Source: Pseudonocardiaceae bacterium YIM PH 21723 | Lineage (GTDB): Bacteria; Actinomycetota; Actinomycetes; Mycobacteriales; Pseudonocardiaceae | Length of the DNA stretch: 64,000 nucleotides | Assembly (NCBI GenBank): GCA_003600225.1 | Contig: QZFT01000019.1 | Span: 62,001-126,000, forward strand | Reading direction: 5' to 3' | In this document: positions 13,717 to 48,265 of the stretch, piece by piece | How positions within the stretch are numbered: position 1 is the first letter of the stretch | Layout of the letters: each line of letters begins with the position of its first letter | Made by a program: the position numbers and the translations under genes | Notes under the pieces: generated by a model | Database searches by the model: none | The model's input: only the letters and a program-made list of their open reading frames with translations | Told to the model about the DNA's origin: nothing

Positions 13717-14012
13717 CCGCAGTGATTCCGAAGTTGGCGATGTTCGCGGCGAGGAACGAGCCCCGAACATCGCCGGCTTCGGGACACTTTGTGGATGTGA
13801 ACCATTTCCTGGTCCGGCACGAAGGTACGTGAGACGGCGTACTCCCTGATTCCATTGGGTAACGCAGGAGTGACTGTCATGTGCCTCCTGTGTAACCAGA
13901 ATGGGTGAACGTGTGGCCTGGGTCACAGCTTCGCTGGAGAATGAACTCGTATCGATACCTTGAGCGTTAGAGGGACGTAATCCCAGTCAGGACCGAGGAG
14001 GGGGAGGGTGGC
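13717..14012. other. Intergenic region with repeat hairpin and presumed promoter
   Basis: After the hairpin at 13728-13782 there are about 230 bp without a plausible gene, somewhat AT-richer than the surroundings. It leads to a strong Shine-Dalgarno (GAGGAGGGGGAGG) before the small secreted protein gene. Confidence 0.45.
13728..13782. repeat. Long hairpin, copy 1 of the CCGAAGTTGGCGATGTTCG family
   Basis: CCGAAGTTGGCGATGTTCG pairs with CGAACATCGCCGGCTTCGG across a loop containing GCGAGGAACGAGCC. It starts 12 bp after the aminotransferase stop. The same sequence recurs at 43684-43732 and 48200-48252 in this window. It probably acts as a factor-independent terminator, but the shared sequence marks it as a dispersed repeat. 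Confidence 0.75.
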
Positions 14013-27079: not shown

Positions 27080-29761
27080 GTGCAGACCCACGAGATCAGC
27101 AAGCGCTTCACTGATCATTTCGTTCGCAGCGGCCACCAGTCGGTGCCCAGCCACTCGGTGCTGCTGGACGACCCGACCCTGCTGTTCGTCAACGCCGGCA
27201 TGGTGCCGTTCAAGTCGTATTTCCTCGGCGAGGCCCCGCCGCCCGCGACCAAGCTGACCAGCATCCAGAAGTGCGTGCGGACGCCGGACATCGACGAGGT
27301 CGGCAAGACGACCCGGCACAACACGTTCTTCCAGATGGCCGGCAACTTCTCCTTCGGCGAGTACTTCAAGGAAGGCGCCATCCAGCAGGCCTGGGAACTG
27401 GTCACCGGCTCCCAGGACAGCGGCGGTTACGGCTTCAACCCGGACGACATCTGGGTCACCGTCTACGAGGACGACGACGAGGCCATCGACCTGTGGCGCA
27501 AGGTCGGCATGCCCCTCGACCGCATCCAGCGCCGGGACATGATCGACAACTACTGGTCGATGAACGTTCCCGGCCCGTCCGGCCCGTGCTCGGAGATCTA
27601 CGTCGACCGCGGCCCGCAGTACGGCAAAGAGGGCGGCCCGGTCGTCGACGAGGACCGGTACCTGGAGATCTGGAACCTGGTCTTCATGCAGGACATCCGC
27701 GGTGAGGGCAAGGGCAAGACCGACTTCCCGATCGTCGGCAAGCTGCCCAAGAAGAACGTCGACACCGGCATGGGCATCGAGCGGGTCGCGTACCTGCTGC
27801 AGGGCGTGAACAACGTCTACGAGACCGACCTGGTCCGCCCGGTGATCGCCAAGGCCGAGGAGCTGTCCGGCCGCAAGTACGGTGCCAACGAGATCGACGA
27901 CGTCCGCTTCCGGGTCATCGCCGACCACGCGCGCTCCGGCATGCTGATCATCGGTGACGGCGTCACCCCGGGCAACGAGGGCCGCGGCTACGTGCTGCGC
28001 CGGCTGCTGCGCCGCATCGTCCGCTCCTCCCGCCTGCTGGGCGTCAAGGAGCCGGTGCTGAGCCAGTTCGCCGAGGTCGTGCGGGACACCATGGGCCCCA
28101 CCTACCGGGAGCTGGTCACCGACTTCGAGCGGATCGACCGGATCGCCACCGCCGAGGAGAACACCTTCCTCACCACCCTGGCCAGCGGCTCGAAGATCTT
28201 CGACCTGGCGGCCAAGGACGTGAAGGGCACCGGCGCGACCGTGCTGCCCGGCGACAAGGCCTTCCAGCTGCACGACACCTACGGCTTCCCGATCGACCTG
28301 ACCCTGGAGATGGCCTCCGAGGCCGGCCTGCAGGTCGACCAGGACGGCTTCCGTGAGCTGATGGCCGCGCAGAAGGCGCGGGCCAAGGCGGACGCGGCCA
28401 GCCGCAAGACCGGTCACGGTGACCTGACGGTGTACCGCGAGCTCCTGGACCAGGGCCCGACCGTGTTCCGCGGTTACGAGGAGCTGGAGACCGAGGGCAC
28501 CGTGCGCGGCATCATCCGCGACGGCCGGCGGATCAAGAGTGCCGGTGAGGGCGAGATCGTCGAGGTCGTGCTGGACCGCACCTCGCTGTACGCCGAATCC
28601 GGTGGCCAGGACAGCGACTCCGGCCTGATCGTGGCCGACGGGATGCAGCTGAAGGTCCTGGACGTGCAGAAGGTCGCCCGCAAGCTGTGGGTGCACCAGG
28701 TGAAGGTCGTCGGCGGCGAGGTCGCCGAGGGCCTGAAGGTCGTGTCCCAGGTCGACGCCGAGTGGCGCACCGGTGCCCGGCAGGCGCACTCCGGCACCCA
28801 CGTGGTGCACGCGGCGCTGCGCCAGGTACTCGGCCCGTCCGCGTTGCAGAGCGGCTCGTACAACAAGCCGGGTTACCTGCGGCTGGACTTCGCGTGGAGC
28901 AACGCGCTGTCCCCGGAGACCCGCAGCGAGATCGAAGAGGTCTCCAACCTGGCCGTGCGCCGGGACCTGCCGGTGCGCATCGTCTACACCGACATGGGCG
29001 GCGCGCAGGACATGGGCGCGCTCGCGTTGTTCGGTGAGACCTACGACGAAGAGGTCCGGGTCATCGAGATCGGCGGCCCCTGGTCGGTCGAGCTCTGCGG
29101 TGGTACCCACGTGGACCACTCCAGCCAGATCGGCCTGGTCGCGCTGACCGGCGAGTCCTCCATCGGCTCCGGCACCCGGCGCCTGGAGGCGTTCGTCGGC
29201 ATCGAGGGCTTCCGCTTCCTGGCGAAGGAACGCGCGCTGGTCCAGGGCCTCGCCGACTCGCTGAAGGTGCCCACCGCCGAGCTGCCCGAGCGCATCGAGT
29301 CCCTGGTGGACAAGCTGCGCACCGCGGAGAAGCAGCTCGACCAGTTCCGCGCCGAGAAGCTGCTGTCCTCGGCCGGTGACCTGGCCGCGGGCGCCGACGA
29401 CCTGAACGGCGTCGCGTTCGTGGGCAAGGAGCTGCCCGCCGGCATCGGCGGCAACGACCTGCGCACCCTGGGCACCGAGGTACGTAACCGCCTCGGATCC
29501 CGGTCCGGTGTGGTCGCGCTGTTCTCCCCGGACCCGGCGGCGGGCAAGGTCAGCTTCATGGTGGCCACCACCGACGCCGCACGCGCGGCGGGGATCAACG
29601 CGGGCAAGCTGGTCCCGGTCTTCGGCCCGGAGATCGGTGGCCGTGGCGGCGGCAAGCCGGACATGGCCCAGGGCGGCGGCACCAACCCGGCCGGTATCGG
29701 CAGTGCGGTAGCCGTGCTACGTAAGGAACTAGAGGCGCGCCAAGGGAATAAGACACAGTGA
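27080..29761 (+). CDS. alaS: Alanine--tRNA ligase
   Basis: 893 residues, GTG start with TGAGGA upstream. The class II catalytic domain includes [19 protein letters not shown] and [21 protein letters not shown]; the editing domain has the zinc motif HSGTHVVH with the later [13 protein letters not shown]; the C-terminal coiled coil and C-Ala domain end in [18 protein letters not shown]. All hallmark regions are intact. It charges tRNA-Ala in the cytoplasm. The ruvX start overlaps its stop (GTGA), beginning a conserved alaS-ruvX-mltG-aroE run. Confidence 0.98.
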
Positions 29762-30252
29762 ACTCTTCGCCCCCACCCGCAGTGGACCGGCCCGGAATCG
29801 ACGATCCCGGCTTCGGTCGCAGACTCGGTGTCGACGTCGGTTCGGTGCGGGTGGGCGTGGCGATCAGTGATCCATCGTGCCTGTTGGCGACCCCGCTCGT
29901 TACCCTTCAGAGGGACGAGCAGAGCGGCCGTGACCTGGACGAACTGGTCGCGCTCGTCCGTGAGCACGAGATCGTCGAAGTGGTGGTCGGATTGCCCAGG
30001 ACCCTGCAGGGCAGGCACGGCCCCGCGGCGGAGGCCGCGGTGTCCTATGCCCAGATGCTGTCTGCGCGTATATCCCCCGTTGTGGTTAAGCTCGGGGACG
30101 AACGGCTAACCACGGTGACGGCTACCCGAGTCCTTGCGCACCGTGGGGTGCGCGGACGCAAACAGCGAGCGGTGGTTGACCAAGTGGCGGCAGTGGAGAT
30201 CCTTCAGGCTTGGCTGGACGGACGGTCCCGGACCCTCGGAGCGGGCCGGTGA
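29758..30252 (+). CDS. ruvX: Putative pre-16S rRNA nuclease / Holliday junction resolvase-like YqgF
   Basis: 164 residues from GTG 29758 (GTGA overlap with alaS). RNase H-fold motifs are visible: [16 protein letters not shown] (first acidic strand), [11 protein letters not shown] and DERLTTVTA, with the final [15 protein letters not shown] acidic site. YqgF proteins process the 5' end of 16S rRNA in E. coli and have been called Holliday junction resolvases. The N-terminal 20 residues are Pro-rich and extra. Co-translated with mltG. Confidence 0.93.
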
Positions 30253-31574
30253 ACGACCGCAGGAGCCGCCCGCCACGTGAGCGCAGGCCTCGACCGGTGC
30301 GGGATCGCCAGGAGTACGTGGAGCAGACGCCGACCGACGGCCTGGGGCTGTTCCACGACGAGACCACGGTCATCGACCGCATCGACGACGACTACGTCGA
30401 CGAGCAGGAGCTTCGCCGCCGCAAGAAGAAGGCGGCCCTGGAGAAGAAGCGGATCAAGACCAAGCGCCGCAACCGGATGGTCCTGATCAGTGTGTTGCTG
30501 GTTGGCATCCTGGGCGCCGCGAGCTTCGCCGCCTACACCCTGTTCTGGTACTCGGACTACAAGGGCGACGGCACCGGCAGCGTGGTGGTCCAGGTCGAGG
30601 ACGGCTCCTCCCTGACCGCCATCGGAAAGACCCTGGAGAAGGCGGGCGTCGTCGCCAGCGCCAAGGCGTTCACCAAGAACGTCGGCGCGGCGAACATCGT
30701 CCCCGGCTCCTACAAGCTGCACAAGGAGATGTCCGGCGCCGCCGCCGTCGCCCTGATGCAGAACCCGTCGTCCAAGGTCGGCTCCTTCGACGTCAAGGGC
30801 GGCGAGCAACTCTTCGACTTCAAGGTCTCCGAGAAGGAGACCAAACCCGGCATCTACTCGAAGATCGCCGAGGCCTCGTGCACGGAGGAGTCCGGCACGA
30901 AGAAGTGCGTCTCCGTCGACGAGCTGAAGTCCGTCGCCTCCACCGGCGACCCGGCGGACCTGGGCGCGCCCGAGTGGGCGGTGGCCTCGATCAAGAAGGC
31001 CCCGGATCAGAAGCGGCGCCTGGAAGGCCTGATCCTGCCCGGCACCTACAACGTGCCGCCCGGCCTGTCCGCCAAGGACACGCTGAAGAACGTCATGCAG
31101 ACCTCGATGGCCATCATGACCAAGGCCGGCATGCCCGACCTGGCGAACAAGACGGGGCTCACCCCGTACCAGGTGCTCACCCTGGCCTCGCTTGTCGAGC
31201 GTGAGTCGAACACCGAGGACATGCCCAAGATCTCCCGGGTGATCTACAACCGGATGGCCAGCGACGAGCCGCCCATGCAGCGGCTGCAGCTCGACTCGAC
31301 GGTCAACTATCTCCTGGACCGGCAGCACATCCGCACCAGTGATGCGGACCGGAACAACAAACAGAACCCGTACAACACGTATCAGCAGAAGGGCCTCACC
31401 CCGACGCCGATCGGCTCGCCCGGCCTCAACGCGTTGAAGGCGGCGGCTAACCCGGAGCCGGGCAAGTGGCTGTTCTTCGTGGTGTGCGAGAAGCCGGACA
31501 AGTCCTGCTTCGCTGAGACATTCGCCGAACACGACAGGCTCCAGGCGGACGCACAGCGGCGCGGCATCTTCTGA
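30249..31574 (+). CDS. mltG: Endolytic peptidoglycan transglycosylase MltG
   Basis: 441 residues from GTG 30249, overlapping the ruvX stop (GTGA). The N-terminal 75 residues are cytoplasmic and highly basic, followed by one membrane helix ([24 protein letters not shown]), a LysM-like region and the YceG domain. The catalytic Glu is in [11 protein letters not shown]; other conserved blocks are [21 protein letters not shown] and [11 protein letters not shown]. It cleaves nascent glycan strands. Normally aroE follows at once; here 1.5 kb of disturbed sequence lies between, including a second 3' half of this same gene. Confidence 0.94.
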
Positions 31575-31928
31575 TCTATCGCGCCGAAGTATCCGGAACC
31601 AGGCTAGGGGCGCACCTGTCCAGGATGGCAGGTGTAGATAACGTGATGATCAACTGTGCCGGTGTTGGCACCGGTAGCGGTGGTCTGAGCTGTTTCTTCA
31701 GTCGCTGCCGATGCGGCAGCTCGATGCGTTAGTTACTCGCTGTGTCGATTCGCAGTCGCCGGGTTCCTGGTGCGGTGCTCGTTTTCGCCGACTGAAGCGT
31801 GCCTGACCCGTTGTCTGAGTGACATCGTTGTCTGTCCTAATTCAGACTGAATTACTTCAATCTATGGACCGAGCGTCTGGTTTCCGGTAACTTTCGATTC
31901 CAATTTAATTCGCACGAGGGGGCAAGTG
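31575..31928. other. Intergenic region after mltG with a decayed aroE-like fragment
   Basis: About 350 bp without a gene. Segment 31746-31789 aligns with the aroE 5' end (see separate entry). Two small hairpin-like sequences lie at about 31656-31676 and 31700-31720. The last 100 bp are AT-rich and probably hold the promoter of the small secreted protein gene. Confidence 0.5.
31746..31789 (+). pseudogene. Probable remnant of aroE 5' end (fragment alpha)
   Basis: By eye the segment aligns with aroE 33090-33133 at about 34 of 45 columns (CGATTCGCAGTC against CGGTTCGCGGTC; CTCGTTTTCGCC against CTCGCTTTCGCC), with two one-base gaps and mostly transition differences. It is too short and frame-disrupted to code. 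It may be an older scar of the same duplication process that left fragment beta. Confidence 0.45.
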
Positions 31929-32294
31929 ATGAAATCTTTTAGGGTGCCGATGGCCATTCTCGTATCAGCCTTCTTTTTGTTCGCAAGCACGACTACTGCT
32001 CTAGCGGCAGGAAATGAAGCTCAGTTGCCGAGTAATTGCGGTTTGGGTCACCCTGACGGGCAACCTGTGTGCATGACGTCAGAAGAACTTTTTGCGGGAA
32101 GCCAGTATTTTCATGCTCCGATTTCTTCGGGGCAGTGCAGGAACGTATTTGCCTACAAGAGTATTCATAATGAGCATAATATTGCGCAACGTGTGTGGGA
32201 AAATGGAAACTGCACCGGCAGGGATATATTGGTTTACGTTAATGGCGACCAGACCTATTTCGGCTTCACTGCCTATGGGTTGGGTGGATTCTAG
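31929..32294 (+). CDS. Small secreted protein, possibly peptidase-inhibitor I36-like
   Basis: 121 residues from ATG 31929 (GTG 31926 is directly adjacent); GAGGGGG lies upstream. Residues 1-27 form a clear Sec signal peptide ending TTALA-A. The mature part has four cysteines (SNCGLG, PVCMT, GQCRN, NGNCTG), and the segment KSIHNEHNIAQRVWENGNCTG resembles the core strand-turn-strand of family I36 inhibitors; this assignment is tentative. Base composition is clearly lower in GC and codon use more AT-ended than in flanking genes, suggesting recent acquisition. It sits inside the broken mltG-aroE junction. Confidence 0.7.
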   Translation: MKSFRVPMAILVSAFFLFASTTTALAAGNEAQLPSNCGLGHPDGQPVCMTSEELFAGSQYFHAPISSGQCRNVFAYKSIHNEHNIAQRVWENGNCTGRDILVYVNGDQTYFGFTAYGLGGF

Positions 32295-32372
32295 GGGGCC
32301 AATGGATTGGCTGCGTTCTGCCTGATTTTGTTATCGCTGCCAGGTACATGCCGCCCGAGGCTTTGCTCAGTG

Positions 32373-32606
32373 TGATCCGTTTATTGGGTTGATGATCCAG
32401 TCAGCTTATGGACCGCTGTTCTCGGTTTGCCGGTACAGCATTCGCTATCCCGGTGCTGCACCGCGGTGCCTTCATACGTTCGGTTTGACCTGGATTTACG
32501 CGTGGGTGGAGTATGAGGAGCAGCGGCTGCCCCAGTTGATCGCAGAGACGGGGCCGGTTTCTCGGTCACTATGCCGGGTAAACGCGTGACCCTCGCGGTC
32601 GTCCCA
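32373..32606 (+). pseudogene. Truncated, frameshifted copy of the mltG/aroE junction and aroE 5' region (fragment beta)
   Basis: TGATCCG at 32373 matches the mltG stop context at 33061, and the following 200 bp align with the aroE start through about codon 70: CTCGGTTTGCCGGTACAGCA against CTCGGTTCGCCGGTGCAGCA, GTGGAGTATGAGGAGCAGCG against GTGGAGTGTGACGAGCACCG, and TCGGTCACTATGCCGGGTAA against TCGGTCACCATGCCCGGCAA. Small indels break the frame. Homology stops near 32606 and mltG homology begins about 45 bp later. Confidence 0.85.
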
Positions 32607-32649
32607 CAGGCCAGGAGTATCGCCCTGGCCACCGGGCTGCCATGCTGGT

Positions 32650-33063
32650 TTCACCCCGTACCAGATCCTGACCATGGCGTCGTTGATCGAACGCGAGGCC
32701 ATCAACGAGGACATGCCGAAGATCTCCCGGGTGATCTACAACCGGTTGGCCAACTCCCAGCAGAACATGCAGCGCCTGCAGTTCGACTCCACGGTCAACT
32801 ACCTGCTGGACCGCCAGCACATCACGACGACCAAGACCGACCGGGAGAAGGACGGCCCGTACAACACGTACCTGCGCAAGGGCCTGACCCCGACGCCGAT
32901 CGGTTCGCCCAGCGCGGAGGCGTTGAAGGCCGCCGCTCACCCGGAGTCCGGCAACTGGCTGTACTTCGTGGTGTGCAAGAAGGGTGGCAAGTCCTGTTTC
33001 ACGGACAACTTCGACACTCACCAGAAGACAGTCGAAGAGGCGCAGAAGAACGGCATCTTCTGA
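32650..33063 (+). pseudogene. 5'-truncated second copy of mltG (3' half)
   Basis: The frame from 32650 to the TGA at 33063 encodes 137 residues matching the last 40% of MltG: FTPYQILTMASLIEREA against [54 protein letters not shown] and a NGIF terminus. The two copies differ at many residues, so this is not a recent exact duplication. The catalytic Glu is retained, and ATG 32674 could start a 129-residue peptide, but the membrane anchor and N-terminal half of the domain are missing. It keeps the normal 17-bp spacing to intact aroE. Confidence 0.88.
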
Positions 33064-33080
33064 TCCGTATCCTCTGATCA

Positions 33081-33911
33081 ATGAGTTCACGGTTCGCGGT
33101 CCTCGGTTCGCCGGTGCAGCACTCGCTTTCGCCAGTGCTGCACCGCGCGGCCTTCACGGCGCTCAGCCTGTCCTTCACCTACGAACGGGTGGAGTGTGAC
33201 GAGCACCGGCTGCCCCAGCTGATCGCCGAGCCCGGCTGGACCGGGTTCTCGGTCACCATGCCCGGCAAACACGTCGCCCTGACGGCGGCCGACCGGGTCA
33301 CCGACCGGGCCCGCGCCGTCGGTGCGGCGAACACCCTGGTCCGCACCGACGAGGGCTGGCTGGCCGACTGCACCGACGTGGACGGCGTCTCCGGCGCCCT
33401 GCGCTCGGCCGCCGGGCTGTCCTATGTGGACAGCGCACTGATCCTCGGTGCGGGTGGCACCACCCTGGCCGCCATCGTCGCGCTGGCCGGGATGGGAGCC
33501 CAGGAGATCACCCTCGCCGTCCGCAACCCCGACCGGGCGGCGGACGCGGTGCGTTGCGCGGAACAGCAGGGCCTGCGCACCCGGGTCCTGCGCCTCGGCG
33601 CCACCGACCTGTCCGGCCTGGCCGCGCACAGCTCGGTCACTATCAGCACGCTGCCCGGGGGAGCGGCCGACGGTTACGTGTCCGAACTGGTGCGTGCCCC
33701 CGCGCTGCTGGACGTGATCTACCACCCCTGGCCGACGCCCCTCGCGACCGCGGCGAAGGCCAAGGGGATCGCGTTCGCCACCGGCCTGGACATGCTGCTG
33801 CACCAGGCCTTCGGTCAGGCCGAACACTTCACCGGCATGCCCGCGCCCCGCGAAGCCATGCGGGACGCGCTGCGCATCGCCACCGGCAACGAGCTCGAGC
33901 TCCCGCTCTGA
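33081..33911 (+). CDS. aroE: Shikimate dehydrogenase
   Basis: 276 residues from ATG 33081. The substrate-binding N-terminal domain starts with FAVLGSPVQHSLSPVLHRAAF and has the catalytic Lys in TMPGKHVAL; the next conserved blocks are GAANTLVR and DCTDVDGV. The NADP domain has the GAGGTTLAAIVAL loop. It reduces 3-dehydroshikimate to shikimate. The other shikimate genes lie 11 kb downstream. It is the intact copy in a region containing two decayed aroE 5' fragments. A palindrome follows its stop. Confidence 0.95.
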   Translation: MSSRFAVLGSPVQHSLSPVLHRAAFTALSLSFTYERVECDEHRLPQLIAEPGWTGFSVTMPGKHVALTAADRVTDRARAVGAANTLVRTDEGWLADCTDVDGVSGALRSAAGLSYVDSALILGAGGTTLAAIVALAGMGAQEITLAVRNPDRAADAVRCAEQQGLRTRVLRLGATDLSGLAAHSSVTISTLPGGAADGYVSELVRAPALLDVIYHPWPTPLATAAKAKGIAFATGLDMLLHQAFGQAEHFTGMPAPREAMRDALRIATGNELELPL

Positions 33912-33914
33912 GTG

Positions 33915-33938
33915 GAGCACTTTCCATGGAAAGTGCTC
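33915..33938. terminator. Perfect 24-bp palindrome between aroE and the convergent HAD gene
   Basis: GAGCACTTTCC followed by its exact complement around the centre AT. It starts 3 bp after the aroE stop and overlaps the last base pairs of the HAD reading frame. A second copy of the core ACTTTCCATGGAAAGT lies at 33967-33982. Confidence 0.6.
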
Positions 33939-34617
33939 AGCTGGTGGTCGTCTTGGGTGCGGGGGCACTTTCCATGGAAAGTCCGGTGATCGGCCAGGCG
34001 ACCTCGGTGTAGTCGCGCACGATCACGTGCGCCTCCGCCAGTTGCTCCGCCGGAACCGTGTTGCCCACCGCGATGGTGTGCGCGCCCGCCGCCCGCGCGG
34101 CGGCGACTCCCGCCGGGGTGTCCTCGAACACGATGACATCGCCGGCGTCCACGCCCAGCCGCTGGCAGGCCAGCAGGTAGCCGTCCGGAGCGGGCTTGCC
34201 GTTGACCACCTCTTCGGCGGTGACGATGGCCGACATCAGGTCGAGCACCTCCAGCCGGGCCAGGTGTCCCCGGACGTGCGGTGAGGTCCCGGAGGACACC
34301 ACGCCCAGGGTGACCCCGTCGGCGTGCAGCTGCCGGATGAACTCCGGCGCACCGGTGATCGGGCCGGGAGCGGGCAGGTCCGGGTCGGTGAAGTAGCCCA
34401 TGCACTCGGCGCTCAGTTCCTCCGGCGTGCGGCCGGGGAAGTGGTGCATGAAGGCGGGCAGCACCTCGTGACCCCGTCGACCGGCGAATCCGGTCAGCTC
34501 CGCGTCGGTGATCGGCGCGGAGTAGAGCTCGAACAGCCGGCGCCACGCCGCCTTGCTCTGCGGCTCGGTGTCCACCAGCGTTCCGTCGAGATCGAACAGC
34601 ACTGCCGAAGGCGTCAT
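33937..34617 (-). CDS. HAD-family phosphatase, beta-phosphoglucomutase-like
   Basis: 226 residues from ATG 34617 with GGGGGA upstream; a TTG two codons earlier is less likely. HAD motif I is FDLDGTLVDT, motif II VVSSGTSP, motif III near NGKPAPDGYLLA and motif IV VFEDTPAGVAAARAAG. It should dephosphorylate a small sugar phosphate or similar. The last 14 residues (LSMESAPAPKTTTS) are encoded by the second copy of the ACTTTCCATGGAAAGT palindrome and the spacer after it, so the C-terminal tail looks like captured intergenic DNA. Confidence 0.88.
   Translation of the reverse strand: MTPSAVLFDLDGTLVDTEPQSKAAWRRLFELYSAPITDAELTGFAGRRGHEVLPAFMHHFPGRTPEELSAECMGYFTDPDLPAPGPITGAPEFIRQLHADGVTLGVVSSGTSPHVRGHLARLEVLDLMSAIVTAEEVVNGKPAPDGYLLACQRLGVDAGDVIVFEDTPAGVAAARAAGAHTIAVGNTVPAEQLAEAHVIVRDYTEVAWPITGLSMESAPAPKTTTS
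33967..33982. repeat. Second copy of ACTTTCCATGGAAAGT palindrome, inside HAD 3' end
   Basis: A 16-bp perfect palindrome identical to the core of the 33915-33938 copy, 28 bp away. It is translated as part of the HAD C-terminal tail. Confidence 0.7.
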
Positions 34618-34694
34618 CGCCAAGTCCCCCTGAGCTCGTCGTATACCCAGTCGACCATGGGGTCACGACGGGTCTCAAGGAACAGTGACGACGG

Positions 34695-35345
34695 CTACCC
34701 GCTGATCGGTCCGTAGATCGCCGCCGGGGTGCCGGTGGTCATGGCCCAGTACCGGTCGCCGTAGGACCAGTGCCACCACTCGGTCGGGTAGTTCACCAGT
34801 CCGGCGGTCTCCAGGGCCGAGCAGAGGATCTGCCGGTTCTCCTTGCCCTCCGCCGAGATGTTGGTCGCGGCGGTGTAGCAGGCGCCGTCGTGTTCCTCCG
34901 GCGGAGCGTTGAGCCTGCCGCCCATGTCCAGCTCGCCGCCGTCGGCCGCGCACAGCGTCAGGTCCACCGCCGCGCCCGCCACGTGCGGGCCGATGGCCGG
35001 CGGGGACAGTGACCGGCTGGTCTGCTGGTACAGGTGGTCGTCGCTCCAGCCCGGGTTGTCCCGGCGCAGCTGCTCCGCGTACTGCTGGAAGTACTTGGCC
35101 TGCAACCGCATCGGCCGCCGGCCCTCGTAGATCATCAGGGCGGTGCCCGTGGGCAGCAGGCTGGCGGCCAGCCGCAGCCGCTCGACCAGCCCGGCCCGCA
35201 GCTGCGCGTAGATCCCGGCCTGGTCGGCGTAGGTGGCGTTCATCCGGAACTCCGGGAACTTGCGCACGTCCACCAGGGGCTCGCCGCACTCCAGCACGGG
35301 CAGGTCCGCCACGCGTGGGTCGCACATCAACACGATCTCGGCCAT
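34695..35345 (-). CDS. D-Ala-D-Ala dipeptidase, VanX-like (peptidase M15D)
   Basis: 216 residues from ATG 35345 (MAEIVLMCDPRV). Zinc-site residues typical of VanX/DdpX are visible: GPHVAGAAVDLTL (HxxxxxxD) and the C-terminal EWWHWSYGD, supplying the catalytic Glu and third zinc ligand His. There is no signal peptide, so a cytoplasmic role in D-Ala-D-Ala turnover or nutrient recycling is expected; no VanA/VanH partner is present, so glycopeptide resistance is not implied. The longer upstream frame runs into the cobalamin-operon leader and was rejected. Confidence 0.88.
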   Translation of the reverse strand: MAEIVLMCDPRVADLPVLECGEPLVDVRKFPEFRMNATYADQAGIYAQLRAGLVERLRLAASLLPTGTALMIYEGRRPMRLQAKYFQQYAEQLRRDNPGWSDDHLYQQTSRSLSPPAIGPHVAGAAVDLTLCAADGGELDMGGRLNAPPEEHDGACYTAATNISAEGKENRQILCSALETAGLVNYPTEWWHWSYGDRYWAMTTGTPAAIYGPISG

Positions 35346-48195: not shown

Positions 48196-48199
48196 AGTT

Positions 48200-48252
48200 C
48201 CGAAGTTGGCGATGTTCGCGCGAGGAACGAGCCCGAACATCGCCAACTTCGG
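48200..48252. repeat. Long hairpin, copy 3 of the CCGAAGTTGGCGATGTTCG family
   Basis: CCGAAGTTGGCGATGTTCG pairs exactly with CGAACATCGCCAACTTCGG around CGCGAGGAACGAGCC, nearly the same loop as copy 1. It sits between aroQ and the convergent TetR gene and can terminate both. Confidence 0.8.
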
Positions 48253-48265
48253 GCACACCGTGCGG

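Follow-up and report, generated by a model that had tools for sequence, protein, structure and literature searches.

Remnants of a second mltG–aroE unit between the intact mltG and aroE genes of Pseudonocardiaceae bacterium YIM PH 21723

Organization of the mltG–aroE interval

The window analysed here, a stretch of 64,000 nucleotides from contig QZFT01000019.1 of Pseudonocardiaceae bacterium YIM PH 21723, carries on its plus strand an intact gene for the endolytic transglycosylase MltG (mltG1, 30249–31574), which matches the Pfam model YceG (PF02618; E = 2.1e-67) and scores above the cutoff of TIGR00247, and an intact gene for shikimate dehydrogenase (aroE2, 33081–33911; PF08501 and PF18317), aroE2 being the sole whole-protein match within its own genome. 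The mltG1 frame opens with GTG, with an alternative TTG at 30210, and closes with a stop codon at 31572–31574. The 1506 bases between the two genes contain, all on the plus strand, a cargo gene for a 121-amino-acid protein (31929–32294), an aroE pseudogene in two pieces (aroE1'; the leader and codons ~1–66 at 32373–32598, codons ~220–239 at 32590–32647) and the 3'-terminal third of another mltG ('mltG2; the last 139 codons and the stop, 32644–33063), the order along the window being mltG1 - cargo - aroE1' - 'mltG2 - aroE2. Seventeen nucleotides lie between the end of 'mltG2 (33063) and the start of aroE2 (33081); the limits that an earlier note on this DNA had set for the intact genes, an mltG reaching 31574 and an aroE opening at 33081 after that spacing, hold.

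Between mltG1 and the cargo gene, a segment of ~350 bp with lower GC content (31577–31928) contains no frame of 60 amino acids, has no Rfam match and has no second copy in the genome. Two further short frames occur in the block, one of 77 amino acids at 32092–32325 and one of 83 amino acids at 32381–32632 on the minus strand. Rfam models at gathering score detected no RNA element in 29000–35000, no tRNA was found in the window, a terminator scan gave a single minus-strand match (shuffle mean 1.8) and a promoter scan gave none (shuffle mean 0.7).

Two kinds of repeat were also observed outside the interval. Downstream of aroE2, the perfect 16-bp palindrome ACTTTCCATGGAAAGT occurs at 33919–33934 and again at 33967–33982, 48 nt apart, the pair sitting where the 3' end of aroE meets that of a minus-strand ORF in convergent orientation; by eye, this ORF resembles a HAD-type phosphatase. 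Seven sites in the genome carry the palindrome (four in two pairs, three alone), and none of 45 genomes of other genera contains it; judging by this distribution, it is a lineage-specific palindromic repeat. A direct repeat of ~62 bp, 92% identical, links 13726–13787 with 48198–48258, 34 kb away; its first copy displays near-complementary arms around 13730–13781 by eye.

The aroE pseudogene

Self-BLAST of the window aligned 31159–31511 of mltG1 with 32651–33000 at 80.7% identity (E = 1.7e-71) and 32414–32587 of aroE1' with 33095–33274 of aroE2 at 77.8% identity (E = 3.9e-23); the homology of both segment pairs, on which the earlier note had relied, is far beyond chance. When aligned to the native aroE, the 5' piece of aroE1' lacks an ATG at the position of the aroE start and contains three frameshifting gaps (1, 1 and 4 nt) in its coding part. 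An aroE 5' fragment had been recognized before at 32373–32606, but the aroE sequence does not stop there. The stretch 32607–32649, previously taken for the place at which the inner aroE and mltG copies had fused by a deletion, belongs instead to an aroE 3' remnant, 32590–32647, which matches native aroE 33739–33797: its core alignment (32608–32647) has 32 of 41 columns identical by hand count, and a 46-nt query covering 32605–32650 aligned to the native aroE with a score of 35, which was reached by none of 5000 Markov-sampled sequences (mean 17.4, s.d. 2.7) and by two of 8564 other 46-nt pieces of the window.

The 3' piece is collinear with the 5' piece, an internal stretch of ~460 nt being missing. 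In the alignments a CCCT..CG motif stands on both sides of this stretch, and the two pieces overlap there, so that the internal loss is likely to have occurred by a short-repeat deletion. After codon ~239 of aroE1', the next bases are those of mltG2 from codon ~302. A single fusion deletion is thus wrong in both place and number, since at least two deletions or joints are present, one inside aroE1 and one connecting aroE1 codon ~239 to mltG2 codon ~302. The segment 32373–32647 should be annotated as an aroE pseudogene.

Differences between aroE1' and aroE2 amount to 0.35 at third codon positions and to 0.21 and 0.15 at the others; the corresponding values between aroE2 and 41 other sequences are 0.46, 0.26 and 0.23. 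This third-position bias suggests that part of the divergence of aroE1' arose under selection. Relative-rate counts with 41 outgroups place 4.8, 0.5 and 5.1 extra changes on aroE1' for the three positions of the codon, respectively, so that part of its distance from the native gene reflects its own decay.

The truncated mltG

The inner mltG piece, formerly described as the 3' half of the gene, is indeed part of a second mltG but comprises its last third (139 of 441 codons). It covers positions 158–274 of YceG (PF02618; E = 6.7e-41), shares 66% identity with mltG1 over 139 residues and retains the part of the domain that we take to hold the catalytic glutamate of MltG. Its frame of 417 nt is open, with neither frameshift nor stop, and has a GC3 of 0.94. 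Of the 47 columns with a conservation of 90% or more among 42 other sequences, mltG2 keeps 46 and mltG1 44, and the mean numbers of unique residue changes are 10.3 and 10.5, respectively; both copies look as if they had been under selection for most of their history. The open frame, its high GC3, the retained residues and the lack of excess changes relative to mltG1 would also suit a piece that selection continues to maintain, perhaps as a short protein or as a holder of the aroE2 leader. This is quite improbable, given that no signal peptide or membrane anchor could be read from the sequence, that the first in-frame ATG, at 32674, is preceded by no evident ribosome-binding site, and that a recent truncation accounts for the same facts. 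Annotation of 'mltG2 as a second MltG should be avoided.

Were frameshifting gaps spread evenly over the two remnants, the chance of finding all of them in aroE1' would be 0.02–0.03, whether three gaps in 199 nt are counted or four in 258 nt, including one in the 3' piece. The excess rate of aroE1' at codon positions 1 and 2 (0.043 per site) would lead to ~8 to 14 extra changes in mltG2 at those positions (calculated at 0.03 and 0.05), whereas the number of unique changes there is lower by 2.9 in mltG2 than in mltG1 (by hand estimate, one to two standard errors), a deficit that is suggestive only. The stop-free state of 'mltG2 says little, being expected with a frequency of 55% at 0.05. Since aroE1' has decayed while mltG2 displays no excess changes, aroE1 probably died before mltG2 was truncated, or arrived dead.

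The cargo gene

The cargo gene was recognized by its open reading frame, its GC3 and its weak homologues, and its product has, as read from the sequence, a signal-peptide-like start followed by four cysteines. The GC3 of 0.50, compared with 0.946 in alaS, 0.943 in mltG1, 0.913 in aroE and 0.75 in ruvX, points to foreign or relaxed codon usage, the ruvX value showing that neighbours vary. Weak homologues were detected in four other of 150 family genomes and in none of 395 other genomes of the phylum draw; the five aligned sequences share eight invariant columns, three of which are cysteines. The homologue in G013 (L034) exceeds the cutoff of PF03995, the model of peptidase inhibitor family I36 (4.4e-9), and a second one tested scored below it. 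The cargo protein resembles that family in being small and secreted and in having a homologue that is a member by score, but differs from it in falling under the cutoff of every Pfam and NCBIfam model, PF03995 included. It appears to be a small secreted protein that has four cysteines and a distant relationship to I36-type inhibitors. Searches gave no hit in plasmids at E = 0.01 and none in PDB sequences better than E = 0.5; a fold predicted from the one sequence (mean pLDDT 43) was not used.

The TGATC at the mltG1 stop (31572–31576) is repeated at 32373–32377, and this 5-bp repeat, which flanks the inserted cargo block, is a candidate target-site duplication. It may instead be due to chance or to an mltG stop context in common: TGATCCG, previously interpreted as such a context, is indeed common to the aroE1' leader (32373) and the mltG2 stop (33061), but only TGATC is found at the mltG1 stop. 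A transposon origin of the block was rejected, as there are no inverted repeats of at least 12 nt in 31540–32680 and, apart from the aroE match, the block occurs only once in the genome. The cargo frame matched no Pfam transposase.

The locus in other genomes

The mltG–aroE gap was determined at 43 loci from 42 other genomes (41 of the family, representing 24 genera, and one Nocardiopsis), a non-random sample made up of best matches and 20 hand-chosen stretches, from which the three loci of the window itself, a Clostridia locus lacking an aroE hit and, for eight loci that were present in duplicate, the shorter version were omitted. Its median is 7 nt, and all gaps are of at most 200 nt except the outer gap of G042 (1645 nt), where a second complete mltG lies upstream. 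The two genes are thus normally adjacent, as had been stated before, with at most 200 nt between them in the 41 other genomes of the family.

The mltG 3' end had two matches in 2 of 150 family genomes. Among 390 family genomes in 46 genera, four had two matches and eight had none; the second match of G736 was discounted because it lies inside the first, and that of G648 because it lies on another contig, in a draft with 6% contamination. Two adjacent mltG genes occur in 2 of the 390. In G042 (L039, G042:C1:3848000-3858000) two complete tandem mltG genes precede one aroE and share a tract of 254 identical nt; from alignment column 480 onwards, DNA identity is 0.70–0.86 in the majority of the remaining 90-nt windows and 0.97 in one more. 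This tract likely reflects recent gene conversion between diverged tandem copies, and the pair would show that in-genome mltG pairs persist and convert one another in the family. Both loci have two diverged mltG genes before one aroE in the same family, but in G042 both are complete, an aroE remnant is undetected between them (best local score 24, shuffle mean 24.2) and a conversion tract is present. An event in common was rejected, since no such remnant was detected and the G042 copies pair together (98/85).

Kinship and divergence of the copies

A tree of the mltG 3' end (134 columns, 45 rows) pairs mltG1 with mltG2 as sisters (100/96), with end branches of 0.27 and 0.28. The path between them, 0.54 changes per site, exceeds that of 72% of 29 within-genus pairs and of 1.1% of 831 between-genus pairs; in DNA scores, 28% of the within-genus pairs do no better and 1.7% of the between-genus pairs do as well or better. 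The divergence of the mltG copies is, by these measures, that of distant species of one genus, which fits the view that the event is old or one copy foreign. No mltG closer to either copy than they are to each other was found in 390 family genomes, 382 of which gave a match. Trees of aroE and of whole mltG gave no starred placement for the window's genes. A dN/dS of 0.24/0.48 was set aside, the median dS against other genera being only 0.60–0.67, near saturation.

On the aroE side, aroE1' DNA scores 199 against the native gene, and no score with the 42 other aroE genes exceeds 126. The native gene scores 201 against the aroE of G001 and 194 against aroE1', and the raw score between aroE1' and the native gene, which is equalled or exceeded by 42% of 793 between-genus pairs, is that of an average between-genus pair. 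Given these two results, an equal age of the two gene pairs lacks support.

Two divergent haplotypes of a strain mixture, joined by the assembler, would also place diverged copies side by side, and the genome is a draft in 111 contigs (7.6 Mb). Misassembly is nevertheless very unlikely indeed: the block is interior to a 142.6-kb contig, contamination is given as 0.41%, a dead aroE would be unexpected of a living second haplotype, and copies ~80% alike are probably too different to confuse an assembler easily.

Discussion

The observation is real and the scar ordinary in kind, and the earlier note was accurate except at the junction. It had offered duplication of the segment and its acquisition from a related strain as alternatives; these are the correct options to weigh, and the pairing of both genes supports them. 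In the reading to which we give an even chance, a diverged mltG–aroE unit would have recombined next to the resident unit through one homologous and one non-homologous joint, as in homology-facilitated illegitimate recombination; its source would be a near relative outside the sample, either a distant congener or a member of a sister genus. With two aroE genes present, aroE1 would have been free to die, losing its start and an internal ~460 nt and acquiring frameshifts; the inner mltG would have lost its front through the joint or deletion that links aroE1 codon ~239 to mltG2 codon ~302. The truncated mltG2 would give no exported MltG, leaving the work to mltG1 and aroE2.

Both units appear to have been under selection for a genus-scale time and are therefore most simply viewed as orthologues of two genomes that were united later, which would mean import from a distant congener or sister genus. 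Two working aroE genes kept for that long in one genome seem less likely than divergence in separate genomes, and a one-sided joint yields the observed order at once. Against import, no donor was found among the 390 family genomes; the closest pairing from the mltG or the pseudogene side is also expected of an in-genome duplication; a single joint truncating both aroE1 and mltG2 predicts equal decay, whereas frameshifts are found only in aroE1'; and diverged tandem mltG copies do occur within one genome, as in G042.

An old tandem duplication of mltG–aroE within the lineage, followed by the divergence of two mltG copies that both remained useful, the death of aroE1, insertion of the cargo at the mltG1 stop and a later aroE1–mltG2 deletion, is nearly as likely as import and constitutes a serious possibility. 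It agrees with the kinship within each gene pair (the mltG copies sisters, aroE1' closest to aroE2), with the persistence of, and sequence exchange within, the G042 pair, and readily explains why mltG2 is less decayed than aroE1'. The little divergence expected of a recent duplication is not seen at the mltG 3' end, so that the duplication would have to be old; it would then require a second functional aroE for a good part of a genus-scale time, as judged from the third-position bias, as well as more separate steps, and no gene-conversion tract connects mltG1 and mltG2 (68–84% identity in 90-nt windows).

The scar may be regarded as a fossil that exchange or duplication left at a conserved junction of core genes, one of each gene having been lost again. 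If the cargo came with an imported unit, the scar could show, as the earlier note took it to do, how accessory genes lodge between essential genes; otherwise, it would be a local pseudogene record.

Searches of the literature for mltG and aroE in Actinobacteria, or for mltG tandem duplication with a pseudogene, found none, and nothing specific stood among the matches listed for recombination scars in general. Compared with tandem duplication followed by pseudogene decay, the locus likewise has two copies of adjacent genes with one of each pair broken, but its mltG copies differ at 34% of 3'-end residues and both look selected for most of that time. Homology-facilitated illegitimate recombination, described in Acinetobacter, pneumococcus and Pseudomonas stutzeri, has a laboratory base (PMC3240628) and has been put forward for the T6SS immunity arrays of Vibrio and for Rhs loci (PMC5361080); for the Vibrio arrays, a one-sided joint is proposed to leave the 3' remnant of the old gene before its old neighbour. 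The present locus differs in involving core genes rather than effector and immunity genes, in that the incoming neighbour is itself dead, and in having neither an identified donor nor a located homologous joint. It resembles those arrays, in both order and homology, in its new copy, new downstream genes, 3' remnant of the old gene and intact old neighbour. We tentatively suggest, as something possible rather than probable, that one-sided displacement, proposed for toxin-immunity arrays, extends to core genes of the cell wall and the shikimate pathway: an mltG–cargo–aroE block from a relative would have shifted the resident aroE and the 3' end of the resident mltG downstream, lodging an accessory gene for a secreted protein within a conserved gene pair.
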